Shown here in pieces: positions 51,256 to 63,030 of a DNA stretch of 64,000 nucleotides. Below the pieces are notes generated by a model. That model worked only from the letters and a program-made list of their open reading frames with translations, was not told where the DNA came from and did no database searches. The stretch's first letter is position 1; every line of letters begins with the position of its first letter. Both the position numbers and the translations under genes were made by a program. The stretch comes from Desulfotomaculum nigrificans DSM 574 (GTDB lineage Bacteria; Bacillota; Desulfotomaculia; Desulfotomaculales; Desulfotomaculaceae), in assembly GCF_000189755.2 (NCBI RefSeq), contig NZ_KI912183.1, positions 2,296,257-2,360,256 on the forward strand. The letters run 5' to 3'.

Positions 51256-51287
51256 AACAATAACGGGGAGGCCTCCCCGTTATTGTT
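51256..51287. terminator. Bidirectional terminator
   Basis: AACAATAACGGGGAG and CTCCCCGTTATTGTT pair perfectly between the convergent cyclase and SPOCS genes, with A/T-rich flanks on both sides. Confidence 0.9.
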
Positions 51288-52309
51288 TAAGTACCGGCCA
51301 CACCGAAGGTTGCGTCATCAATCAAAGCAGTGCAGGTATTCCAAGTCTCAGGTGTGAAGCTAAAGGCCACCATGGCTGAGTTGGTGCCTGCGGGAGCGGT
51401 GCCGGAAATTCTAAACTGGCTATAGTTATTAGGACTTAATTGTTGTGACGAAATGGCTTGCGACCGGGTATCAATTACATTGCCTAGGGCATCCAAGAAC
51501 ATGATCTGGGCCTGCAAGGTAAATCCGCAAGGATCCCGGGGAACTTCTATGGAACGGGTCCAGAAGGTTAATTCATAGGTGGTTCCGGCGGCCACATCGG
51601 CAATATTTTGGGATAGGGCAGCGGGTAAAGTGGGGCAGCAACCTAAAGCTGCGGCCAGGCCGGACCTGCCGTTGGGATTGGGGCAAACATTATTACTTTG
51701 CCAGAGGGCAGGTGTGTTGCCAATCCAATTCTCAAAGCTCTCATCCTGGATTCCTGCGGTGGCACCGGGAACAGCGGGACAAACGGCTACCCATAGCTGA
51801 CGCTGTTCCACAAATTTTAACACAAAGGAAACGGTGGCCACCTGTTGAATTTTAGTGGGCCTGGGGAGTTGGAAGTCAATATCAAGGGTCACATTACGGA
51901 AATCAATTTCCAGGTTACCGGGGTCCATTACCTCAATGGGTGGCTCTATGGTTACAGCCTTGGTAAAGGGAACATCTTCACCCATATGACGTACCTGGTC
52001 ATCTTTATTCACAAAGTAAATTTGCTTGTGGATAGTACCGTGCACATTAACACTGCGAATGGTGGCAGGACCGGTGGGACAAGGGGCACCAAAGTGTTTA
52101 GTGGCCTTTGGCGGGCAGGGTACCGCCCTGGTGCCATGGGGTCCGGAAAAGACGGCATCAGCCTCTAAATCTCGAACCACCACATCAATATGGTCTACCT
52201 TTTTAGCTTGCTCATCAAGACAAGTGACATTATTCACAGTTACTGAGGCAGGTTGCTCACCTATCACCAGCGGTAATTTAACTAACTGGCAGGTAGTGCC
52301 GTTAGGCAT
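51287..52309 (-). CDS. SPOCS (DUF3794) domain protein with C-terminal carbohydrate-binding-like domain
   Basis: The 340-residue protein has no signal peptide. Residues 1-170 resemble the SPOCS/DUF3794 domain found in spore-coat and morphogenetic proteins (PLVIGEQPASVTVNNVTCLD, then KQIYFVNKDDQVRHMGEDVPF). Residues 195-340 look like a CBM-type beta-sandwich (DESFENWIGNTPALWQSNN, then TTYELTFWTRS and DDATFGV). A spore-surface role is inferred from the domains. AAAGGAGG precedes the ATG, and a sigma-E-like promoter lies upstream. Confidence 0.75.
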   Translation of the reverse strand: MPNGTTCQLVKLPLVIGEQPASVTVNNVTCLDEQAKKVDHIDVVVRDLEADAVFSGPHGTRAVPCPPKATKHFGAPCPTGPATIRSVNVHGTIHKQIYFVNKDDQVRHMGEDVPFTKAVTIEPPIEVMDPGNLEIDFRNVTLDIDFQLPRPTKIQQVATVSFVLKFVEQRQLWVAVCPAVPGATAGIQDESFENWIGNTPALWQSNNVCPNPNGRSGLAAALGCCPTLPAALSQNIADVAAGTTYELTFWTRSIEVPRDPCGFTLQAQIMFLDALGNVIDTRSQAISSQQLSPNNYSQFRISGTAPAGTNSAMVAFSFTPETWNTCTALIDDATFGVAGT

Positions 52310-52498: not shown

Positions 52499-53395
52499 AT
52501 GCTAAATTGTATAAAGGGGGTAACAGCTATAAGTAATTGTAATAACTTTCAAAAAATGTGGCATGAAGTGGCCTGTCGGCTCCTCTTAGGGGTACTTGTG
52601 GCTGGAGTAGTGTTCCTGCTGGGATGTATGGTATGGGGAAAAAATGTAACCGTTATAGCAGACGGTCGCGTATACCCGCTGCTCCAATTTCAAGGCACTG
52701 TGGCGGATTCTCTGGATAAAGCCAACGTAACTTTAAGGAGAGCCGATATCGTTAATGCACCGTTAAATTCCCCGGTGGTGGATGGACAACGGATCAGAGT
52801 AGCAAGGGTGGAAGAAAAGATATTGATCAGTGACCAAATGGTCAAATTTCAAACCGAAAAAAGATGGGACCCCGGGCTATACCCCGGGCAACAAAAGGTA
52901 GTGCAAAAGGGCACCTGTGGGTTGACCAGGAACTATATACGGGTTATTTATCATGACGGGCAAGAAGTAAAAAGGGAGACCATAAAAAAAGAAATGGTTA
53001 GAAAGTCCCGGCCGTTAATTTTAGCCTACGGGGCCAGAGTAACCGTGTCCCGGGGGCAAGTGCGCCCGTCGCGGGCCTATGCCACCAGGGCAGCCGAGGC
53101 TGCTGCATTGGCCCAACCAATTGGTAATGGGCGGGTGGTAACTGCCGTGGCCACCGCCTATACCCACACAGGTAATCGAACAGCCACCGGTATCCGACCC
53201 TATGTGGGGGTAGTGGCGGTGGATCCAAGGGTAATACCCCTGGGAACCAAACTTTATGTCGAAGGATATGGTCCGGCTATAGCAGCGGATACAGGAGGCG
53301 ACATAGAAGGTAATCGGATCGATGTTTTCTTTGATAGCCGTCAGCAGGCTATGAATTGGGGCAGGCGGCAGGTTAAGGTGCATATTTTAAAATAA
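52499..53395 (+). CDS. YabE-like cell-wall protein (DUF348, G5, 3D domains)
   Basis: The protein has an N-terminal membrane anchor (RLLLGVLVAGVVFLLGCMVW), a DUF348 beta-grasp (TVIADGRVYPLLQFQG), a G5 domain (PGQQKVVQKGTCGLTRNYIR) and a C-terminal 3D domain. The last carries AVDPRVIPLGTKLYVEGYG and the catalytic-type Asp pair region AADTGGDIEGNRIDVFF, as in MltA/YabE/Rpf-like muralytic proteins. The start is uncertain: AAAGGGGG at 52516 points to ATA 52529, while ATG 52499 and ATG 52556 lack good sites. It follows the SPOCS gene divergently. Confidence 0.82.
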   Translation: MLNCIKGVTAISNCNNFQKMWHEVACRLLLGVLVAGVVFLLGCMVWGKNVTVIADGRVYPLLQFQGTVADSLDKANVTLRRADIVNAPLNSPVVDGQRIRVARVEEKILISDQMVKFQTEKRWDPGLYPGQQKVVQKGTCGLTRNYIRVIYHDGQEVKRETIKKEMVRKSRPLILAYGARVTVSRGQVRPSRAYATRAAEAAALAQPIGNGRVVTAVATAYTHTGNRTATGIRPYVGVVAVDPRVIPLGTKLYVEGYGPAIAADTGGDIEGNRIDVFFDSRQQAMNWGRRQVKVHILK

Positions 53396-53557
53396 AGGTG
53401 CCATACAGCTGGTGAAGGACGGCAAATTATTTGCCGTCCTCTGTTGCTTTCTCTGAGAATTTGTATGAATTTTTGAGAAGGATAGCCCTGCCAAGAGAAG
53501 GAATATACAGTACAGGAAATTTAAGGAAGAATGGACATGGTAAAGGAGGGCTTAACT

Positions 53558-54328
53558 ATGGATTGGTGTACCGTAGAGTGGCCACCCCGCCCACGGCCAA
53601 ATTTAAATACCCGGAGGCAAAAACAACAGTCCGGTAAAAAAGCTGCTACAGCCGGTCTATTAGGCCTTGGTATGGTTATTATCTTGGTAGGTGTGGTTTT
53701 AGGTTATGCCGTATGGTCTAAAAAGTTAACCATACCTGCTACTTTTTCTGATACCGGGGAATTGCTCAGAGAATTCATATCCGGCCGAATACCGGTGACA
53801 GTCACAGTGGACGGTGAGACCCGACACCTGCAAATAAAGGGTAAAACTGTGCAAGATGTTCTGACCCAACAAGGGATTAAGTTAAAGCCCCGGGATCAAG
53901 TACTCCCTTCCTTGTCCACACCGGTAAAAAGAAATATGTCAATTAAAGTGATTCGGGTGGAGGAAAAAGAGGAAATAAAGCAGGCGGCAGTACCTTTTCC
54001 CAGTAAACAAACACCAAGAACCCGGACGGTCATTAGCCGTGGGGGGCAGCAACTCCGGTTTACCCGGACCATGGAAATGACTGCCACCGGGTACACCTAC
54101 ACCGGTAACAACACCGCCTCCGGAGTGAAACCGGGCCCGGGGGTGGCAGCGGTTGACCCGAGGGTAATTCCCCTGGGTACCAGATTATACATTGATGGTT
54201 ACGGTAACGCCGTTGCCCTGGATACGGGGAGCTTAATTAAGGGCAACCGGATTGACTTATTTTACGAAACGGAGGCACAGGCCATCAAATGGGGAGTTAG
54301 AAAAACTAAAGTTTATGTTTTGGAGTAG
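53558..54328 (+). CDS. YabE-like protein (DUF348 and 3D domains)
   Basis: The 256-residue protein is a paralogue of the preceding gene. It has a membrane segment (LLGLGMVIILVGVVLGYAVW), one DUF348 domain (VTVTVDGETRHLQIKGKTVQ) and a 3D domain with AVDPRVIPLGTRLYIDGYG and ALDTGSLIKGNRIDLFY. No G5 domain lies between them; a short basic linker is found instead. ATG 53558 is preceded by AAAGGAGG at about nine bases. Peptidoglycan cleavage is inferred from the 3D domain. Confidence 0.85.
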   Translation: MDWCTVEWPPRPRPNLNTRRQKQQSGKKAATAGLLGLGMVIILVGVVLGYAVWSKKLTIPATFSDTGELLREFISGRIPVTVTVDGETRHLQIKGKTVQDVLTQQGIKLKPRDQVLPSLSTPVKRNMSIKVIRVEEKEEIKQAAVPFPSKQTPRTRTVISRGGQQLRFTRTMEMTATGYTYTGNNTASGVKPGPGVAAVDPRVIPLGTRLYIDGYGNAVALDTGSLIKGNRIDLFYETEAQAIKWGVRKTKVYVLE

Positions 54329-54371
54329 AGGGCGATAGAATGAATCGGCCTTATTTTTTTGCCTTTGTTTC

Positions 54372-54461
54372 GCATATCGAAAAGATAAATTTTCCGACAT
54401 GCAAAAAGGGCAACTAAAGCTGCCTCTAACGCCCAAGGGCTTGGCGCCAACCAAGTTTTCT
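54372..54461 (-). repeat. Structured repeat element B (minus strand)
   Basis: Read on the minus strand this is AAAACTTGGTTGGCGCCAAG, then CCCTTGGGCGT, GGCAGCTTTAGTTGCCC and the hairpin GCATGTC/GATATGC. It repeats element A at 32990-33098 in the same order, minus about 20 bases in the middle. It lies in the gap between the second 3D gene and the GntR gene. Confidence 0.75.
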
Positions 54462-54526
54462 TTGCAGTATATGGAGGAAAATGAGTTGAATCAGTGAAAA
54501 TTACTCTGCCTATGTGAAAAAGGTTC

Positions 54527-54555
54527 TTGACTTCCGGCAGGATAAAAACTATATT
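54527..54555 (+). promoter_or_regulatory. Promoter of the GntR regulator gene
   Basis: TTGACT (54527-54532), a 17-base spacer and TATATT (54550-54555). Confidence 0.75.
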
Positions 54556-54572
54556 TGTGAACAACAACACTT

Positions 54573-54593
54573 AACTGGTACACATGTCATTAT
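54573..54593. promoter_or_regulatory. Operator-like site 1 (upstream of gntR)
   Basis: AACTGGTACACATGTCATTA begins 17 bases after the -10 box. The same pattern, AACTGGTAC-n-n-A-n-GT-n-AT, recurs after the second promoter at 55421. A repressor bound here would block early transcription, so autoregulation is likely. Confidence 0.6.
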
Positions 54594-54616
54594 CAGTTGT
54601 TAAGGAGGAATATATC

Positions 54617-55345
54617 ATGGCTTCGTTAGATGTTCGCAACCCCATCCCATTACATGTACAATTAAAAGAAATACTAAGAAAAGAAATTGAAAAAGGACAT
54701 TATACTGAGAAAATTCCTAGTGAGAGAGAGTTAATGGACCAGTTTTCCGTAAGTCGTACAACTGTACGGGAAGCGGTTTCTGCCTTGGTGCGGGAAGGAG
54801 TTTTAGAAAAGATTCATGGGAAGGGAACCTTTATTACTAACCATCAGGTTAATGAATGGTTGGGTAATATAAGAGGTTTTAGTGAGACTATAGAGAGTAT
54901 GGGAATGAAACCCGGCATTCAATTACTGTCTCATGGGATTAACTCTAATTCTGAAATAGGCAACATGCTTGGTGTTAAGGAGTATTACTTTATCGAAAGA
55001 TTGCGTTTTGCCAATGATGAACCAATTGCTATTGAAAGAACATATTACCCTGTAGAGGTTGGCCTTAAATTGGCCGAACATGACTTGAATAAGGTAGCCT
55101 TATATTCGCTGCTTGAATCCAGTGGAATTATTCTTTACGAGGCCGAACAAAAGATTACCGTAGCAATGCCAAGCGAGGAAGATGCCAAGTTACTAGGAAT
55201 TTCCCCTGGCACCAGTGTCTTGGCAGCTGAAAGGCTTACCTCCGATCCCCGGGGCAATACGGTTGAGTATTACTACAGCACATTTCGGGCGGATAAATAT
55301 GCTTTTTGTATCAAGCTTTCCAGAATGGGCTCCAGGACTTTGTGA
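54617..55345 (+). CDS. GntR/HutC-family transcriptional regulator
   Basis: The 242-residue protein has a GntR winged helix (IPSERELMDQFSVSRTTVRE and AVSALVREGVLEKIHGKGTF, about residues 32-75) and a C-terminal UTRA ligand-binding domain (residues 95-235, FIERLRFANDEPIAIERTYY). AAGGAGG lies eight bases before ATG 54617; an ATG at 54584 lacks such a site. It precedes the MFS-SDR-glycyl radical cluster, and both the regulator gene and that cluster carry the same operator-like sequence. The ligand is inferred to be the cluster's substrate or a breakdown product. Confidence 0.9.
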   Translation: MASLDVRNPIPLHVQLKEILRKEIEKGHYTEKIPSERELMDQFSVSRTTVREAVSALVREGVLEKIHGKGTFITNHQVNEWLGNIRGFSETIESMGMKPGIQLLSHGINSNSEIGNMLGVKEYYFIERLRFANDEPIAIERTYYPVEVGLKLAEHDLNKVALYSLLESSGIILYEAEQKITVAMPSEEDAKLLGISPGTSVLAAERLTSDPRGNTVEYYYSTFRADKYAFCIKLSRMGSRTL

Positions 55346-55380
55346 AGGTAGTCCTTTTTTTTATTTTTTTAGTCATCTAG

Positions 55381-55409
55381 TTGACAAATATTTTGACAAA
55401 TTATACAAT
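55381..55409 (+). promoter_or_regulatory. Promoter of the glycyl radical cluster
   Basis: TTGACA (55381-55386), a 17-base spacer and TACAAT (55404-55409). A second TTGACA at 55393 has no good -10 partner. Confidence 0.75.
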
Positions 55410-55420
55410 GTGAACAAGAT

Positions 55421-55442
55421 AACTGGTACGGACGTGATAATG
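55421..55442. promoter_or_regulatory. Operator-like site 2 (upstream of the MFS gene)
   Basis: AACTGGTACGGACGTGATAA lies 11 bases after the -10 box and matches site 1 at about 16 of 21 positions, including all of AACTGGTAC. Confidence 0.6.
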
Positions 55443-55528
55443 TAATTACGTCAAGATGTAGCAATATACAGGCTAATTTAGCTAGTAAAAAAGAACCACC
55501 ATAATATATTTTTTTGGAGGTGTTGCGG

Positions 55529-55639
55529 TTGTGTTCACATGAACAATATACGGTAAGTGACTGTACATGGGTATTATGGGGTCACATACCAGGAGGTGGT
55601 AGACCAAAGGACCGTCAGGCTTTTCATAAAAGAATATAA
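55529..55639 (+). CDS. Possible 36-residue leader peptide rich in Cys, His and Trp
   Basis: After GGAGGTG (55517-55523), a TTG start at 55529 opens a frame of 36 codons reading LCSHEQYTVSDCTWVLWGHI and ending in GGGRPKDRQAFHKRI. It contains two Cys and three His. I do not recognise it. It lies in a 574-nt leader between the cluster promoter and the MFS gene. The rest of this 638-bp gap (55640-55983) shows no supported gene; a 66-codon open frame on the minus strand lacks a ribosome site. Confidence 0.35.
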   Translation: MCSHEQYTVSDCTWVLWGHIPGGGRPKDRQAFHKRI

Positions 55640-55983
55640 AGATATTTTGTATTATCGGAGCCGGGATTAATCAGATTGAATAACATCCATAAGGGCACAG
55701 ACCCAGCATAGGAGCATGACTAACATCTACCTCATGGGCAGGCAGAACGAAGGAATTTAGGGCTATGACCTGTGAGAAATGGGAGGATACGCCGCCGGAG
55801 AGTATGTGGATTCCAATGGCCACAATAACTTGAAAAGGACGCAGTTTTATTGTATACACATTCACATCCATAATAATACATTAATGTAAAACTTGCTCAT
55901 AAAGCTTGTTCTTGAAAATGTGAAAATCTAAGATCCAGCGAGATATCTTTAGAAAATGCAAGATTATAGAGGGAGGAGAGGTT

Positions 55984-57420
55984 ATGACAAAAGGCTTGTC
56001 CAGGCGTGAAGAGGTAAATTTATTGTCAAGGTTAGATCGGATTCCTATCACCGGGACAATTATCCGGATAATGACACTTTTAGTTTTAGCATGGATTATT
56101 GAAGCTTTTGATATTGGGATTGTAGGTCAGACCGTACTGGTGTTAAAAAAAATCTGGCACCTGAGTCCCAGTGATGTTGGTCTTTTAGGTACATCTTCAA
56201 CTTTAGGTATTGTAATTGGTGTGTATTTTGCCGGCCGGTTAATGGATAAATTCGGTCGCAAGAAAGTTCTTGTTTGGGGTGTTGCTTGGTTTGCGTTTTT
56301 TACCGGTATAGGCGCTCTTTTTGCTAACCTCTACTGGGTAGTTGCCATGAGATTTATTGCCGGCCTGGGTGAAGGTGCTGTATTCCCCATTCCGTACTTA
56401 TTAATTTCTGAATTTGTAGGGGCTAAAAGACGGGGTACTATAGTGAGTTGGCAAAACGCTATATTGTGTGCGGCTTACGTGTTACCAAGTATTGTAGGCG
56501 CTTGGGCCTTAACAAGTTTTACCCTCGATGTTGCTTGGCGGATTCCCTTCATCATTGGAGCGTTTCCCATCTTCTACGTAATTGCTTTGGCCTTATGGTT
56601 ACCTGAGTCTCCCCGCTGGCTGTTACAACAAGGTCGAATTGAAGAAGTTAAGAAATTGGTTGCTAAACTGGAAAATGAAGCAGGGCTGGATCACGATGAG
56701 AATTTAATCAATCCCAGCATCGAAAGATCTATATCCGGTCAGACCGAAGAGAAGAAACATGCCGGTATAGCCATGCTCTTTAAGAAGCCTTACCTGTCAC
56801 GTAGTTTAGTTTCCTGGGGGTTATATACAGGTACCATGATTTGTTGGTACGCCATGCTAGTTTATGCTCCTACCATTTTCGCCGCCAAGGGCTTTGAAAT
56901 GAAGAACGCGGTTCTGTTTACCGGTACGATGATGGTAATTGGTGGTCTTGGCGAAGTTGTTATTGGTTACCTCTCAGATGCCTACGGTCGTAAACCCGTA
57001 TATCTGATTTTCAGTGTCTTCTCAGCAGTTGGTATGATTGCCTTGGCGCAAGTAAATTCCTTAACAGGTTTGTTTATCGGAGGATTTATTGCTGCATTCT
57101 TTGGTTTCGGTACATTACCAATGGCTAAGATTTATATTGCTGAGCAATATCCTACCTACTTACGTGGAGCCGGCAGTGGTGTTGGGGAAGCTGTAGCCAG
57201 GTTGTTGGGTGGCGTATTGGTATCCTACTATATCTCCTTTATTCTTGCCGCAGGTGGCGTGAAGGCTGTGTTCTGGTTCGTGGCGGCTGCCTTTATCTTC
57301 TTCGCCATCCCGCTAATGATCTGGGGCCAAGAAACAGCCGGGTTAAGCGTGGAAGAGACTGGTTCCTCCTTACAAAAGGATGATATGGTAAAAGAAAAAA
57401 TGGTTAAAGTTGAAGCTTAG
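55984..57420 (+). CDS. MFS transporter of the glycyl radical cluster
   Basis: The 478-residue protein has about twelve membrane segments. The MFS loop motif GRLMDKFGRKKV occurs after segment 2 (near residue 83) and its second-half counterpart GYLSDAYGRKPV near residue 324. The central loop is charged (residues 220-255). It resembles the sugar-porter/AAHS-like carriers that take up organic anions. GGGAGGAGAGG precedes the ATG. As first gene of the cluster it probably imports the substrate, which I infer to be a small organosulfonate. Confidence 0.88.
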   Translation: MTKGLSRREEVNLLSRLDRIPITGTIIRIMTLLVLAWIIEAFDIGIVGQTVLVLKKIWHLSPSDVGLLGTSSTLGIVIGVYFAGRLMDKFGRKKVLVWGVAWFAFFTGIGALFANLYWVVAMRFIAGLGEGAVFPIPYLLISEFVGAKRRGTIVSWQNAILCAAYVLPSIVGAWALTSFTLDVAWRIPFIIGAFPIFYVIALALWLPESPRWLLQQGRIEEVKKLVAKLENEAGLDHDENLINPSIERSISGQTEEKKHAGIAMLFKKPYLSRSLVSWGLYTGTMICWYAMLVYAPTIFAAKGFEMKNAVLFTGTMMVIGGLGEVVIGYLSDAYGRKPVYLIFSVFSAVGMIALAQVNSLTGLFIGGFIAAFFGFGTLPMAKIYIAEQYPTYLRGAGSGVGEAVARLLGGVLVSYYISFILAAGGVKAVFWFVAAAFIFFAIPLMIWGQETAGLSVEETGSSLQKDDMVKEKMVKVEA

Positions 57421-57463
57421 TTAAAGATATCCTTTTAGAGGCTTCGGAAAGGAGAATAAATGT

Positions 57464-58300
57464 ATGAAGCTTAAAGATAAAGTTGCCCTGGTTACCGGTG
57501 GCACGGCCGGGCTGGGCCGGGGTATTGCACTGGCCTTTGCTCGGGAGGGAGCCAAGGTAGCCATCTGTGGTAGAAATGAGGAGAGACTGAACAAAGTAGC
57601 CCAAGAAATAGAAGAACTGGGGGTTGAGGCTTTAGCCATTAAAGTTGATGTGGCCTCCAGTCAGGAAGTAAAAGAAATGTTTGCCAAGATTGTGGAGAAG
57701 TTTGGCACCCTGGATATCCTCGTAAACAATGCCGGTATTTTCAGGTCTGACCCGGCCGGGGTAGCAGACAGAGCCAAACACCTGGATTTGGTGACCACAC
57801 CGATTCCTCGACAATCATTGCAAATCACCAGAAATATGAGTGATGAGAATTGGAAAAAAATGTTTGATGTAAACGTACACGGGCTGTTCTACTGCACCCG
57901 AGAAGCCCTCAACATTATGGAGGATAAGGGTTACGGTAAAATTATCAACATAGCATCTATTTCCGGTATCTCGGCCATTAGCTGCCATAGTCCCAATTAC
58001 TCCGCAGCCAAGGGAGCGGTGGTAGCCTTCACCAGGTCGGTGGCCTATGAAGTGGCCGGGGCCGGGGTTTGCGTGAACTGCATAGCCCCCGGTTACATTG
58101 ATACAGATGAATTTATGCGTGGTATTAACTCCATGAGCCCTGAGAGAAGAGCCCGTTTCATGCAGCTTATGCCGGTGGGCCGGATAGGTAAGGTTGAAGA
58201 ATATGCTTCGTTAGCTGTTTACCTGGCTTCAGACGATGCTAACTATATGATCGGCCAGGTAATAAGCCCTAACGGTGGTCTGGTTATTGCAGCGAATTAA
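57464..58300 (+). CDS. Short-chain dehydrogenase/reductase of the cluster
   Basis: The 278-residue protein has the classical SDR motifs: TGGTAGLGRG at residues 11-20, NNAG at 88-91, and the catalytic Tyr179 and Lys183 in YSAAK. The Arg at 37 (CGRNEERL) after the second strand suggests NADP(H). An insertion of about 30 residues (93-125) follows NNAG and may shape the substrate pocket. It lies between transporter and lyase. It could reduce the carbonyl product of the lyase or oxidise/epimerise a hydroxysulfonate (compare HpsO); the sequence does not decide. Confidence 0.85.
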   Translation: MKLKDKVALVTGGTAGLGRGIALAFAREGAKVAICGRNEERLNKVAQEIEELGVEALAIKVDVASSQEVKEMFAKIVEKFGTLDILVNNAGIFRSDPAGVADRAKHLDLVTTPIPRQSLQITRNMSDENWKKMFDVNVHGLFYCTREALNIMEDKGYGKIINIASISGISAISCHSPNYSAAKGAVVAFTRSVAYEVAGAGVCVNCIAPGYIDTDEFMRGINSMSPERRARFMQLMPVGRIGKVEEYASLAVYLASDDANYMIGQVISPNGGLVIAAN

Positions 58301-58356
58301 TTATATTTATAAATAAATTTTGGACAACTTAATTAACCAAGGTAGGGGGAATAAAT

Positions 58357-60843
58357 ATGTCTTGTTGTACAGTATTAACACCTCAAGAAGAAAGAATTCT
58401 TAATGAGCAGGCTGGACAAAACCAGGAGAAATTTAAAAAAGGTAGAGAGAGAGTTTATAATATCCTGGAAAGCTTTAAGGGTACTCCGCCGCGTATTAGT
58501 CTGGACAGAGCCCGCCTGATGACAGAATCATTTAAAGAAACCGAAGGCCAACCACTGATCCTTAGATGGGCCAAAGCATTGAAACATATCGTAGAAAACA
58601 TTCCTGTGTATATTGGTGAATACGATATTGTTGTTGGCCGGGCGGACGGTCATCCGGGCAGACATGGTCTAATTTACCCCGAGCTGGACGGTGCTTTCTT
58701 AGACAAAGCAGTGAATATGCTCACCAAAGGTAAAACGCCTTATATTGTAACTGAGGAAGATATAAAAGCCATCAGAGAAGAAATTGTACCCTACTGGAAG
58801 GGTAAGACCTTGCACGAACTCTTTGCAGCCGCTCTACCCGAAGACACCAGGAATTTAATCTTTAATAAAGATGATATTTTCTATCAAAGATATGTTGTTA
58901 CGCAAACAGCCACTATCCGCAGCTCCTTACAGTGGGTACATGATTATGAGAAAGTCTTAAAGAGAGGCTTCAAGGATATTAAAAGAGAAGCTGAAGAAAG
59001 ATTAGCAGCCCTTGATCCAATTAATCCCAAAGATAACGTAGAGAAGAAACCTTTCCTGGAGGCAGCAGTTCTGGTATGTGATGCGGTAATCACCTTCGCC
59101 AGGAGATATGCCCAGTTAGCTGCCAGTATGGCTGAGCAGGAAACCAATGAGCATAGGAAAAATGAGTTGTTAGAAATAGCCAGAATTTGCCAATGCGTGC
59201 CGGAAAACCCTGCCAGAACCTTCCATGAAGCTGTGCAATCCGTATGGTTAACCCAGGTGGTTTCCAGATTAGAACAAAACATCGGTGCGGTAGTTGGCAA
59301 TGGCCGGATGGATCAATATTTCTATCCTTACTATAAGAAAGATATAGAAGAAGGACGCATCACGGAAGAGTATGCTCTGGAATTACTGGAATCTCTGTGG
59401 GTAAATATGGCCCAATTCATCAACTTAAAAGTTTCCCCGGCCGGTGCTGCCTTTACCGAGGGTTACTCCCACTGGGAGGCTTTGACCATCGGCGGTAAGA
59501 CCCGGGACGGTCGGGATGCTACTAACGAGCTATCTTACTTAATTTTGAGGTCTAAACGGGAATTCCCCTTAAACTATCCTGACCTGGCGGCAAGAATCCA
59601 TGCTCAAAGTCCGGAAAAATTTATTCACGAAGTAAGTGAGACAATTAAAGAAGGGTCCGGTTTCCCCAAACTGATGAACGATGAGGAAATCATCCCGTTA
59701 CTTTTGGCTAAAGGGGCACCACTTGAAGAAGCCAATGACTATTGCGCCTCTGGTTGTAGTGAAGTCAGAATGGTGAACCGGGATACCTATACCAGTCCCT
59801 GTGCTTGGGTAAACCTGGGTGCCATACTGGAAATGGCACTAAATGACGGTAAAATAAAAGCCTTCAATAATGAGCAAATAGGTCCACAAACAGGGGATCC
59901 TAGGAACTTCACCACCTTTGAAGAATTGTGGGATGCTTACTGCAAGCAACAAGAATTTGTTCTGAAACATGTATTTATACAACAGTACGTGGCTGATACA
60001 TTAAGGCCCAAGCACCTGGCATCTCCGCTGGCTTCCGTACTCCACGACCTGTGCATGAAGGAGTGCAAGGATCTGCAGTCAGGTGATATACCGGGTGGCA
60101 TTAACTTAGGATTTTATGATATGCTTGGTTTTGGTACTGTGGTTGATTCACTGGCAGCCATTAAGAAACTGGTCTTTGACGACAAGAAAATCACCATGAG
60201 TGAACTGCTGGAAGCCTTGGATGCCAACTTTGAAGGCAAGGAAGTAATTAGACAACTTTTAATCAATGCTCCCAAATACGGCAATAACGATATGTATGCT
60301 GACTCCATCGGACGGGACATTGAAGCTCATGCCATTGGCTTCTCCAAGAAGTATCCCACCGCATTTGGCGGCGAATTAGACGTGAGAATGGTTCCGGTGA
60401 CGGCCCATATTCCTTTAGGTAAAATAGTCGGTGCTACTCCAAACGGCAGAAAAGCCGGCATGCCTCTGGCTGACGGTGGTGGACCATCCCATGGTGCTGA
60501 TACCAGGGGCCCCAGTGCAACCCTGATTTCCATCGCTAACACTAAGAATATGGGTGAAAAAGAACGGGCTGCCAGATTAGTGAACCTGAAACTTAGTCCT
60601 TCAACGGTGGCTGGCGAAGAAGGAACAAGGAAACTAATGTCCTTAATTCGAACATTCTGCGACTTAAAGCTATGGCACCTGCAGTTTAACGTAATCAACC
60701 GTGAGACATTACTGGCTGCGCAAAAAGACCCTGAGAAATATCGTAATTTATTAGTACGGGTTGCTGGATATAGTGCTTATTTCGTTGATCTTTCAACTGA
60801 ACTACAAAACGAAATTATTGCCAGAACTGAGCACAGCTTCTAA
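58357..60843 (+). CDS. Glycyl radical enzyme, probable sulfonate C-S lyase (IslA/HpsG-like)
   Basis: The 828-residue protein is a glycyl radical enzyme: thiyl Cys467 and base Glu469 are in SGCSEVR, and radical Gly804 is in RVAGYSAYF. Counting places Arg188 and Gln192 in TIRSSLQW, Trp373 in SHWEAL, and Arg677 in LDVRMVP. I recall Arg189, Gln193, Trp374, Cys468, Glu470 and Arg678 as the isethionate sulfite-lyase residues, so all match at minus one. Residue 681 is Val where I recall Phe682 in IslA, which could admit a larger substrate such as dihydroxypropanesulfonate. The choline-lyase and glycerol-dehydratase classes fit less well in length and numbering. The expected product is sulfite plus an aldehyde or ketone. 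Confidence 0.85.
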   Translation: MSCCTVLTPQEERILNEQAGQNQEKFKKGRERVYNILESFKGTPPRISLDRARLMTESFKETEGQPLILRWAKALKHIVENIPVYIGEYDIVVGRADGHPGRHGLIYPELDGAFLDKAVNMLTKGKTPYIVTEEDIKAIREEIVPYWKGKTLHELFAAALPEDTRNLIFNKDDIFYQRYVVTQTATIRSSLQWVHDYEKVLKRGFKDIKREAEERLAALDPINPKDNVEKKPFLEAAVLVCDAVITFARRYAQLAASMAEQETNEHRKNELLEIARICQCVPENPARTFHEAVQSVWLTQVVSRLEQNIGAVVGNGRMDQYFYPYYKKDIEEGRITEEYALELLESLWVNMAQFINLKVSPAGAAFTEGYSHWEALTIGGKTRDGRDATNELSYLILRSKREFPLNYPDLAARIHAQSPEKFIHEVSETIKEGSGFPKLMNDEEIIPLLLAKGAPLEEANDYCASGCSEVRMVNRDTYTSPCAWVNLGAILEMALNDGKIKAFNNEQIGPQTGDPRNFTTFEELWDAYCKQQEFVLKHVFIQQYVADTLRPKHLASPLASVLHDLCMKECKDLQSGDIPGGINLGFYDMLGFGTVVDSLAAIKKLVFDDKKITMSELLEALDANFEGKEVIRQLLINAPKYGNNDMYADSIGRDIEAHAIGFSKKYPTAFGGELDVRMVPVTAHIPLGKIVGATPNGRKAGMPLADGGGPSHGADTRGPSATLISIANTKNMGEKERAARLVNLKLSPSTVAGEEGTRKLMSLIRTFCDLKLWHLQFNVINRETLLAAQKDPEKYRNLLVRVAGYSAYFVDLSTELQNEIIARTEHSF

Positions 60844-60894
60844 TGTTCATTAATAATCCATCATATAAATGTGTTTGCTCAAATTGGAGTATAT

Positions 60895-60925
60895 AAGTCC
60901 TGCTCTCTATGGGCAGGACTTCCTT
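60895..60925 (+). terminator. Hairpin between lyase and activase genes
   Basis: AAGTCCTGC and GCAGGACTT pair around TCTCTATGG, with a pyrimidine-rich tail (TTCCTTCCTTCTTTTTC). It may lower activase expression relative to the lyase. Confidence 0.7.
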
Positions 60926-60962
60926 CCTTCTTTTTCTTTTTTATAAACCAGGGGGAGTTTAA

Positions 60963-61898
60963 TTGAAAATGAACCATGAACTTGTAAAGAAAGATGCAGG
61001 GCTTGTTTTTAACATTCAACAATTTTCGGTTCATGACGGCCCGGGCATAAGGACCATTGTATTTTTGAAAGGTTGTCCTCTAAGGTGTCAGTGGTGTGCC
61101 AACCCTGAATCACAGCATCATTTTCCGGAACTGGCATATAACCATAATAAATGTATCGGCACCCATGAATGTCAGATATGTAAACAAGTTTGCACCGCCG
61201 GGGCTATCAAAGAGGGAGAAAACGATAAGGTCAAAATTGATCGTAGTCAGTGCACAAATTGCGGTGAATGTGCTGAAATCTGCCCATCTAAGGCCTTAGA
61301 AGTTTTCGGAAAGTACATGAGTGTAGAAGAAGTCTTAAAAATTGTAGAGGAAGACAGCATTTTTTATGCCAGGTCAGGTGGCGGGTTAACCTTAAGTGGG
61401 GGAGAACCTCTTTTACAGGCTGAATTTGTTTACAAGTTGCTTAAGGAAGCCAAGGAGAGGGGGATGGATACCGCCATTGAAACCTGTGGTTATGTTGATT
61501 GGAAAAAAGCAGAGCCGGTTTTTAAATATCTTAATACTGTGTTTTTTGATATCAAATGCGTGGATGGAAACAAGCATAAACAATTTACCGGGTTGTCTAA
61601 CGAGATAATATTATCAAACTTTATCAAGTTATGCCAACTATACCCGAAAACTCCTATTATTGTTAGAACACCGGTAGTTCCGGGATTTAACGATACGGAA
61701 GAGGATATATTTGCTATTGCAAATTTTATAAAAGGAATTCCCCATGTCACATATGAACTTTTGCCTTACCACCGTTTTGGTGAATCTAAATACACTTATT
61801 TAGGAAAACAGTACCTGTTAACCGGGGTGGAAAAACCGGCAGAAGAACGGATGAAAGCCCTTAGAAGTATCGTCAGCTCGGTGTTAGGAAATGATTAG
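60963..61898 (+). CDS. Glycyl radical enzyme activase (radical SAM)
   Basis: This 311-residue enzyme generates the glycyl radical on its partner. The radical SAM motif gives Cys38, Cys42 and Cys45 in KGCPLRCQWCANPES. A ferredoxin-like insert with two clusters follows (CQICKQVC and CTNCGECAEIC), as in IslB, CutD and other large activases. GGGLTLSGGEPLLQ near residue 140 is the SAM-binding GGE motif. The start is TTG 60963 after GGGGGAG; ATG 60969 is possible. It lies 119 bp after the lyase. Confidence 0.95.
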   Translation: MKMNHELVKKDAGLVFNIQQFSVHDGPGIRTIVFLKGCPLRCQWCANPESQHHFPELAYNHNKCIGTHECQICKQVCTAGAIKEGENDKVKIDRSQCTNCGECAEICPSKALEVFGKYMSVEEVLKIVEEDSIFYARSGGGLTLSGGEPLLQAEFVYKLLKEAKERGMDTAIETCGYVDWKKAEPVFKYLNTVFFDIKCVDGNKHKQFTGLSNEIILSNFIKLCQLYPKTPIIVRTPVVPGFNDTEEDIFAIANFIKGIPHVTYELLPYHRFGESKYTYLGKQYLLTGVEKPAEERMKALRSIVSSVLGND

Positions 61899-61903
61899 TT
61901 GAG

Positions 61904-61940
61904 CTTAAACCATCGGTATAGCCGATGGTTTAAGTTATTT
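61904..61940 (+). terminator. Terminator after the activase gene
   Basis: CTTAAACCATCGG (61904-61916) and CCGATGGTTTAAG (61922-61934) pair perfectly; the tail is TTATTTAT. Confidence 0.75.
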
Positions 61941-61966
61941 ATGGCATCTAACCTTATAACGCCCTT

Positions 61967-62000
61967 ATTGTAAACCTAATTAATTAAATAGGTTGACAAT
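61967..62000. promoter_or_regulatory. BirA operator of the bio operon
   Basis: ATTGTAAACC (61967-61976) and GGTTGACAAT (61991-62000) form an inverted repeat with a 14-base spacer, as in Firmicute BirA operators. The right half contains TTGACA (61993-61998), the probable -35 box of the bio promoter (-10 near 62016-62023). Biotinoyl-AMP-bound BirA would block RNA polymerase. Confidence 0.85.
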
Positions 62001-62064
62001 AGTTTTGTATGTGGATTATAGTTAATTAGGAGCGGCAAAGAATTATTGAAAAGGCAGGGTAAAT

Positions 62065-63030
62065 ATGAGCAATATTTTGAAACATATCGAGAATAAACTG
62101 CTAAATGGGAAGTTGATTGACTTTGCAGAAGCACTGGAACTGTCTGAGGATAGGATTAAAAGTGAGGAATTATTTAGCCTGGCAGATCAGATATGCAAAA
62201 AATATATGGGGAATAAGGTTGATCTGTGTTCCATCATCAATGCAAAGTCGGGAGAGTGTTCTGAGAACTGCAAATACTGTGCCCAGTCCGGACATTACAA
62301 CACCGGGGTTCCAAGTTATCCGCTCATCGATATCCAGGAAGTATTGGCTTTAGCTAAAGAGAACGAAAGAAACGGCGTTCACAGGTTTTCCATTGTAACC
62401 AGTGGAAAAAGCCTGACCAACAATGATTTTGAAAAAGTTTTAGAAATGATTGCAGCGTTGCGGGTGGAGACAAATCTAAAGCTGTGTGCGTCTCTTGGTA
62501 GTATCTCCTTTGAACGGGCGTTACGTCTAAAAGAGGCAGGTCTTTCAATGTACCACCACAATATTGAAACATGCAAGGAATACTATGCAAACATCTGTGA
62601 CACCCATACCTATGATGACAGAATACATACCATCAAAAATGCAAAAAAGGCAGGGCTTGAAGTATGCTGCGGCGGTATTATTGGGATGGGCGAAAGTATG
62701 GAACAAAGGATAAAAATGGCCTTTGAAATCAGGGAGCTGGGTATTACTTCGATTCCTATCAATATCCTGAATCCCATTAAAGGGACACCCTTGGAACATG
62801 TTGAAAAAATTGAGCCGATGGAAATAGTAAGGACCGTTTCATTGTTCCGGTTAATTATACCCTATGCTTCTATTAGGTATGCCGGTGGAAGAAGTGCATT
62901 GGGAGAACTCCAGCAAAAGAGTTTCATGGCTGGCCTCAATGCATTGATGGTCGGGAACTACCTGACAACGGTAGGGAATACAATTCCAGATGACGTAAAA
63001 ATGATACAGGAAATTGGTCTGGAGGTATAG
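62065..63030 (+). CDS. bioB: Biotin synthase
   Basis: BioB inserts sulfur into dethiobiotin. The 321-residue radical SAM protein has the cluster Cys65, Cys69 and Cys72 in SGECSENCKYCAQSGHY. Family segments are YHHNIETCKEYYANICDTHT, CCGGIIGMGES and YAGGRSALGELQQKS, with the Arg ligand of the 2Fe-2S cluster. It is the first gene behind the BirA operator, and bioD follows after two bases. Confidence 0.97.
   Translation: MSNILKHIENKLLNGKLIDFAEALELSEDRIKSEELFSLADQICKKYMGNKVDLCSIINAKSGECSENCKYCAQSGHYNTGVPSYPLIDIQEVLALAKENERNGVHRFSIVTSGKSLTNNDFEKVLEMIAALRVETNLKLCASLGSISFERALRLKEAGLSMYHHNIETCKEYYANICDTHTYDDRIHTIKNAKKAGLEVCCGGIIGMGESMEQRIKMAFEIRELGITSIPINILNPIKGTPLEHVEKIEPMEIVRTVSLFRLIIPYASIRYAGGRSALGELQQKSFMAGLNALMVGNYLTTVGNTIPDDVKMIQEIGLEV

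Follow-up and report, generated by a model that had tools for sequence, protein, structure and literature searches.

We analysed a window of 64,000 nucleotides from Desulfotomaculum nigrificans DSM 574 (contig NZ_KI912183.1, positions 2,296,257 to 2,360,256 of the forward strand) and describe here a compact set of five genes built around a glycyl radical enzyme (GRE). The initial annotation had proposed such a cluster, comprising a GntR-type regulator, a major facilitator superfamily (MFS) carrier, a short-chain dehydrogenase/reductase (SDR), the GRE and its radical S-adenosylmethionine (SAM) activase. All five genes are indeed present as open reading frames on the plus strand, and the four partner proteins pass the Pfam cut-offs for GntR/UTRA, MFS, SDR and radical-SAM proteins. 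In positions of the window they are:

54617 to 55345, plus strand: gntR, regulator of the GntR/UTRA (HutC) type, Pfam GntR and UTRA above their cut-offs; the listed open reading frame starts at 54584
55984 to 57420, plus strand: MFS carrier, presumed sulfonate importer, Pfam MFS_1/Sugar_tr
57464 to 58300, plus strand: classical SDR oxidoreductase with N137/S165/Y179/K183 and G36-R37 in invariant columns, Pfam adh_short
58357 to 60843, plus strand: GRE of 828 residues, predicted sulfonate sulfite-lyase from PDB and Pfam matches, alignment and trees
60963 (TTG) or 60969 (ATG) to 61898, plus strand: radical-SAM GRE activase, Pfam Radical_SAM and Fer4 and NCBIfam activase profiles

For gntR the ATG at 54617 fits better as the start than 54584, since an operator-like site overlaps the latter and GGAGG precedes the former. 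The regulator and MFS genes are separated by 638 bases which contain a promoter. The activase has a CX3CX2C motif and two further cysteine-rich cluster sites, and a search of the host genome for the PFL-like family returned the GRE of the cluster as the single match.

The GRE carries the PFL-like and Gly_radical domains, the active-site cysteine and the C-terminal glycine radical motif RVAGYSAYF. We aligned it with the solved isethionate lyases IslA/IseG (PDB 5ymr and 7kq3) and with HpsG (PDB 6lon), the sulfolyase of 2,3-dihydroxypropanesulfonate (DHPS). In this alignment Arg188, Gln192, Trp373, Cys467, Glu469, Arg677 and Gly804 correspond to R189, Q193, W374, C468, E470, R678 and G805 of IslA. 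The offset of one residue claimed earlier thus holds at every position, and the two arginines, whose equivalence had been left to be checked, pair with R189 and R678. In IslA the exchanges C468S, E470Q, Q193A, R189E and R678E made activity undetectable (PMC8473560; this and the other papers are cited from the parts of their text available to us). Two residues near the substrate differ: Val681 and Ala311 stand where IslA has Phe682 and Thr312, a pair found in both solved IslA structures, and HpsG has Ile and Ala there. The valine, which had been taken as a hint of a bulkier substrate, is therefore a real departure from IslA in the alignment.

Bit scores of the GRE were far above chance for 5ymr (1131), 7kq3 (1069) and 6lon (1025), and reached 601 for the best choline lyase and 536 for glycerol dehydratase (PDB 1r8w). 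The GRE was 54.4% identical to HpsG, 55.9% to the IslA of Bilophila and 60.1% to that of D. vulgaris. Peck et al. used a cut of 62% identity for putative IslA (PMC6386719), and the GRE falls below it. The NCBIfam cut-offs for HpfG, CutC and HypD were not reached either (503 of 1000, 582 of 1050 and 607 of 1100 bits). In contrast, NCBIfam NF048011, named '(2S)-3-sulfopropanediol dehydratase', gave 1430 bits against a cut-off of 1000. This model was passed by eight of eight GREs tested (L005, L018, L023, L092, L105, L110, L135 and L146; L and G numbers are our handles for loci and genomes). It gave more than 1570 bits to L005 and L018, which are of the Phe/Thr type, and 1075 bits to L092, which lacks both arginines. 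The model thus fails to separate the families, and the name HpsG, for which the match was considered, was not adopted. The NF048011 name is also at odds with the reaction described for HpsG, which releases sulfite and yields hydroxyacetone (PMC12890257).

From a GRE search of genomes we kept the best 80 of 180 relatives. The 131 extracted rows contained 108 distinct GREs, and with L157 to L159 the set came to 111, the GRE of the window being counted once. Trees were built from chosen rows: one of 63 rows, drawn from the 108 distinct GREs, the three PDB lyases and glycerol dehydratase as the outgroup, and further ones of 34, 42 and 39 rows. They cover sulfonate-lyase relatives and this outgroup, choline lyase, HypD and HpfG rows being left out of all of them. 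In the 34-row tree the GRE groups with its orthologues in a single clade (100/100), and all 22 IslA-type and HpsG rows form another (100/100) that excludes it; the 63-row and 42-row trees likewise place it outside IslA and HpsG, which again hold together at 100/100 in the 42-row tree. The 39-row tree was made without L090, L135 and L137; with these rows restored in the 42-row rerun, the IslA and HpsG clade, now including L090 and L137, still had 100/100 support. In approximately unbiased (AU) tests, for which the groups were defined after the first tree had been viewed, forcing the GRE together with HpsG in the 34-row tree cost 211 log units and was rejected (p-AU 8.7e-62). Forcing it together with the IslA rows alone cost 204 log units (p-AU 2.7e-8), a less clean test, since HpsG falls inside the IslA-type group. 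Clades of the GRE with L023 or with L096 and L097 were neither established nor rejected (AU p values of 0.34 and 0.07, respectively). Judged by its sequence, the GRE is a separate, deeper branch and neither a variant of IslA nor of HpsG. Accordingly, the earlier assignment to the sulfonate C-S lyases is supported by the aligned arginines and by a position next to IslA and HpsG in trees rooted with glycerol dehydratase. A dehydratase or choline-lyase clade had been named as the alternative; choline lyases, which were not among the tree rows, score far lower.

Positions 188/192/677/681/311 were then read as a pocket code over the 111 GREs. R-Q-R-F-T was found in 84, R-Q-R-I-A in eight (the HpsG group), R-Q-R-V-A in seven, N-N-K-V-G in four and R-N-R-V-A in three, and the remaining five had other forms. 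On 39 rows the traits Phe or non-Phe at 681 and Thr or non-Thr at 311 each require two changes, and on 42 rows three each, counting L090 (Val/Ala) and L137 (Val/Thr). This reads as a single gain of the Phe/Thr pair in the ancestor of IslA and HpsG, with subsequent losses that include one in HpsG. On this reading the older state would be Val681/Ala311. According to PMC8473560, Phe682 of IslA is packed against isethionate, and Thr312 is close to it without contact. With Val681 and Ala311 in their place, the new enzyme therefore probably has a wider pocket, with the extra room at the two points where HpsG has it too and by separate descent. Four sister GREs (L092, L093, L095 and L098) have Asn, Asn and Lys in place of Arg188, Gln192 and Arg677, and they probably do not hold their substrate as a sulfonate in this manner. 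Read by eye, L093 adjoins two beta-hydroxyacid-dehydrogenase-like genes in L163. The Avidesulfovibrio genome G427 has four GREs of the family (L079, L135, L136 and L137), each on a different contig.

Similar five-gene clusters were found in Desulfocucumis palustris (L002), Desulfotruncus arcticus (L003) and Desulfofundulus thermobenzoicus (L004), and also in L158. In the three named species the GREs are 80-85% and the SDRs 81-85% identical to those of the window; in L004 the contig ends within the MFS gene, and the regulator gene is found downstream on the opposite strand. The GRE of L158 is 84% identical, and gntR lies downstream on the same strand. Orthologues of the carrier, 74-80% identical, occur in L002, L003, L004 (partial), L157, L158 and L159 (partial). 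Searches with the SDR matched 3 of 398 genomes drawn from the phylum (E <=1e-75) and, at E <=1e-70, 6 of 113 genomes in the class and 3 of 45 in the family to which G386 belongs; to judge from contig positions, the genomes of L002 to L004 are among the matches in the class, as is that of the window. All seven R-Q-R-V-A GREs, the one of the window included, have an SDR nearby that is 81% or more identical; four of these GREs came from the window and the GRE searches and three (L157 to L159) were reached through the SDR searches. In contrast, no SDR of at least 50% identity was seen near any of the 84 R-Q-R-F-T GREs in the flanking DNA examined, which extended to 4 kb on both sides for only 27 of them. 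A looser relative of the set is L146, whose GRE (57%, with Asn at 192), activase (58%), MFS protein (26%) and SDR (60%) are less similar.

In L157 and L159 the same partners accompany a different enzyme. Their MFS and SDR proteins are 75-86% identical to those of the window, and L157 also has a gntR gene (65% identical; in L159 its position lies outside the stretch examined). Their GREs, however, are only 57% and 55% identical and, together with L094 (53%), are sister to IslA and HpsG (100/100 in the 42-row tree); one clade with the window type was rejected (p 2.1e-9, 39-row tree). Nevertheless, both carry Val681, Ala311 and Leu191 despite their separate lineage, and Ala311 is shared by L094. 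As the two types share the partner set, both should cut the same compound.

Compared with IslA and IseG, the GRE of the window belongs to the same fold family, keeps every catalytic and sulfonate-contact residue, and likewise has an adjacent activase and a sulfite-reducing host. It differs in its moderate identity, its deeper clade, the two pocket residues, the SDR partner and the GntR gene. With HpsG it has in common the Arg/Gln/Arg set, an aliphatic residue at 681, Ala311 and Leu191, whereas HpsG has Tyr, Tyr and Phe at positions 187, 484 and 687, where the window has Ile, Trp and Leu, and falls within the IslA group. The partner genes had been proposed to set the cluster apart from isethionate clusters. 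For the carrier this does not hold, since IseG of D. piger also adjoins an MFS gene (PMC6453916). The SDR remains a distinctive partner, but not on account of the unusual insert of 30 residues claimed for it. The insert measures about 24 residues net (query 96-122 against three residues in a FabG-type chain), and since the alignment to the D-mannonate oxidoreductase profile NF006132 spans it without a break, it was dismissed as a unique trait. An NADP preference of the SDR is suggested by G36-R37, the one feature from which we read it, which is invariant in all six SDRs aligned.

The genomic context speaks for sulfite as the product. The host had been described as sulfite-respiring, in agreement with a dsrA match of 594.9 bits against a cut-off of 392.85 in its genome; the weaker match next to it is probably dsrB. 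A gene for a sulfite exporter of the TauE/SafE family lies directly 3' of the activase gene in L004 and L157 and 2.2 kb from an activase gene in L149. In L161 (8097-16069) the genes after those of the L094 GRE and its activase encode a permease, an ATPase, a sulfonate binding protein of the SsuA family (181.4 bits against a cut-off of 163.5) and a protein of the nitrite/sulfite reductase type (NIR_SIR family); this arrangement looks like GRE-based use of a sulfonate as sulfur source. Taken together, the TauE/SafE, SsuA, NIR_SIR and dsrA contexts speak for a release of sulfite that may then be respired, exported or assimilated.

We consider it rather probable that the substrate taken up and desulfonated through this cluster is a 2-hydroxyalkanesulfonate of greater size than isethionate, with a C3 compound such as DHPS as the most likely candidate. 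The GntR/UTRA protein would act as a repressor on sites at its own promoter and that of the MFS gene and would be released by a ligand, and the MFS carrier would import the sulfonate. The activase would place a radical on Gly804, from which it would pass to Cys467. By analogy with IslA and HpsG, the Cys467 thiyl radical would take the carbinol hydrogen and Glu469 the hydroxyl proton, while Arg188, Gln192 and Arg677 would hold the sulfonate and Val681 and Ala311 would leave room for an extra carbon. Elimination of sulfite would leave a methyl ketone or an aldehyde. The SDR may interconvert carbonyl and alcohol in either direction, so as to produce the hydroxysulfonate or to reduce the carbonyl that the lyase forms. 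Sulfite would be reduced by the dissimilatory sulfite reductase to which dsrA belongs, and in some relatives could be exported by the TauE/SafE carrier.

Several observations weigh against this interpretation. Val681 is not exclusive to the window type, as R-N-R-V-A occurs in L096 and L097 outside the IslA and HpsG clade and in L090 inside it, and L137, also inside, combines Val with Thr. Phe682 is hence not fixed within that clade. As Gln681 is present in L094, the nearest kin of the L157-type GRE, and Val681 in other GREs, the pocket code indicates 'not IslA-like' and nothing beyond. The HpsG-type loci span less than 1.5 kb per side, which is too short to show whether an SDR is present. In L148 an SDR of 53% identity stands without a GRE among the open reading frames of the 16 kb stretch examined, and in L160 a truncated SDR copy lies at a contig end. 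The cluster of the window host contains no TauE gene. A structure-based comparison of the pockets was dropped because both AlphaFold models were too poor for use (mean predicted local distance difference test scores of 47.7 and 58.3).

An isethionate sulfite-lyase that tolerates Val681 is an unlikely explanation. The SDR would in this case reduce acetaldehyde or make isethionate from sulfoacetaldehyde, as does the NADPH-dependent SDR IsfD (PMC6616044). Both IsfD and the SDR HpsO, which acts on (R)-DHPS, are known from other pathways. The higher identity to D. vulgaris IslA than to HpsG fits an isethionate lyase, as does the activity retained by IslA F682A at an approximately 50-fold lower efficiency (PMC8473560). 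Against it stand the position outside the IslA and HpsG clade and the lack of this SDR beside the 84 Phe/Thr GREs in the flanking DNA examined. Moreover, 38 alignment positions, of which two are gap columns in IslA, have a residue that is invariant in four members of the window clade and absent from 37 rows selected for Phe681, in which these positions are at least 85% conserved.

Still less credence is given to two further explanations. Sulfolactate or another carboxylated hydroxysulfonate, cleaved to pyruvate and sulfite with the SDR acting on the keto form, was suggested by the genes right 3' of the cluster in Desulfotruncus arcticus (L003:13722-22476): a UbiD-type decarboxylase, a 2-hydroxyacid dehydrogenase, an Ldh_2 enzyme, a chemoreceptor, a citrate-type carrier and a tripartite ATP-independent periplasmic (TRAP) permease. 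The best NCBIfam profile of the Ldh_2 enzyme is L-sulfolactate dehydrogenase, with 321.5 bits against a cut-off of 500. However, this profile had no match in the genomes of the window host, L002, L004 and L023 and in two of three genomes of the same genus (the third, G203, had two matches), and none of the eight genomes passed the cut-off. Sulfolactate was rejected as a shared substrate because such dehydrogenases were seen beside L003 only. Equally improbable is a dehydratase or another eliminase acting on an anionic diol instead of a C-S lyase. The name of NF048011 would favour it, but this model also accepts Phe/Thr-type GREs and one without the arginines, the HpsG reaction is described as sulfite release, and the model of the Klebsiella dehydratase, HpfG, reached only half of its cut-off.

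Beyond the preferred C3 hydroxysulfonate, we tentatively propose, at slightly less than an even chance, a third class of GRE sulfite-lyases with a substrate of its own. Two GRE lineages of separate descent, with the same enlarged pocket, would have been plugged into one set of regulator, carrier and SDR. As the SDR would then be a needed pathway enzyme, the pathway, for example from carbonyl-sulfonate through hydroxysulfonate to sulfite and ketone, or a handling of (R)-DHPS, would be unlike any described anaerobic sulfonate route.

The intergenic regions contain the following candidate regulatory elements:

54527 to 54555, plus strand: sigma-70-like promoter before gntR, TTGACT-17-TATATT, 10 of 12 consensus positions, from a consensus scan only
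54573 to 54593, plus strand: operator-like site AACTGGTACACATGTCATTAT before gntR, one mismatch to the pattern
55381 to 55409, plus strand: promoter of the MFS-SDR-GRE unit, TTGACA-17-TACAAT, 11 of 12 consensus positions, from a consensus scan
55421 to 55441, plus strand: operator-like site AACTGGTACGGACGTGATAAT directly 3' of the -10 box, with the conserved AACTGGTACGKACGTS
60895 to 60921, plus strand: hairpin of 11 base pairs between the GRE and activase genes, from comparison across clusters

The scan for sigma-70-like consensus sites returned 28 in the region versus 17.2 (standard deviation 3.8) in shuffled sequences. By eye, a TTGACA and a TATAAT-like stretch lie at the same place before the MFS gene in L002, L003, L157 and L158. 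In all five clusters with DNA available before this gene (these four and the window), AACTGGTACGKACGTS follows the -10-like box, as expected of a repressor site, and we regard it as a candidate operator. The operator pattern, which was itself drawn from the two sites of the window, matched these two and a mean of 0.09 times in 100 shuffles. A matching site precedes gntR in L002 too, but L003, L004, L157 and L158 yielded none in front of this gene. At no more than one mismatch the pattern matched three sites in the host, two of them in the cluster. A wider regulon was rejected, as the 16-base pattern at no more than two mismatches had 41 matches in the host versus 74 for the reversed control. 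The GntR protein has GntR and UTRA domains, and sites of the ACTGGTNNNNAC type adjoin the promoters; in both respects it presumably resembles regulators of the HutC/NagR type with their dre-like operators. None of the NCBIfam equivalog regulator models was over its cut-off for the protein.

The hairpin, AAGTCCTGCTC-loop-GGGCAGGACTT, is common, with small changes, to five window-type clusters (the window, L002, L003, L004/L134 and L158) and to nine IslA-type clusters of Firmicutes (L006, L008, L012, L013, L083, L085, L087, L113 and L118), its letters being identical in L006 and L087. The stem is AAGTCCTGC-like, and 6 of the 11 pairs show two-sided changes that keep the pairing (13 sequences). 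Stems of at least nine pairs, five of them G-C, occurred downstream of GRE genes in 60 of 109 regions versus 9 of 300 shuffles, which preserved base content only and were drawn from the initial 60 rows. The count includes related loci, which are not independent of one another. The hairpin is missing in L157, where the gap between the GRE and activase genes is 16 bases. A riboswitch or another known RNA was rejected, as no Rfam match at E <=1 was found in 54300-62100. The hairpin may keep the activase at a lower level than the GRE, either as a terminator or as a stabiliser.

Full-text searches of open-access literature gave no title or abstract opening that points to such a cluster, most subscription papers being beyond the scope of these searches. 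Desulfotomaculum strains with highly similar clusters are mentioned by Peck et al. (PMC6386719), so members of the branch may already be included in earlier counts of IslA or HpsG. In the literature covered, the only two C-S-cleaving GRE activities met with were those on isethionate and DHPS. Further sulfonates may serve anaerobes as sources of sulfite, as a third branch with partners of its own suggests; this would feed sulfide production and the sulfur cycle and would give sulfide-producing bacteria another food and sulfur source. Furthermore, the Phe682/Thr312 pair may help to tell isethionate enzymes from others, to which the NCBIfam model gives one name throughout.

Upstream of the cluster, a minus-strand gene at 51287-52309 encodes a protein of 340 amino acids without a Pfam match at 1e-5. 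The direct 5' neighbours are two adjacent genes for 3D-domain proteins (52499-53395 and 53531-54328), both with DUF348 and the first also with G5; direct DNA repeats of at least 25 bases between the two genes were not found. On the 3' side, biotin-synthesis-type genes (Pfam BATS and AAA_26) follow from 62065.

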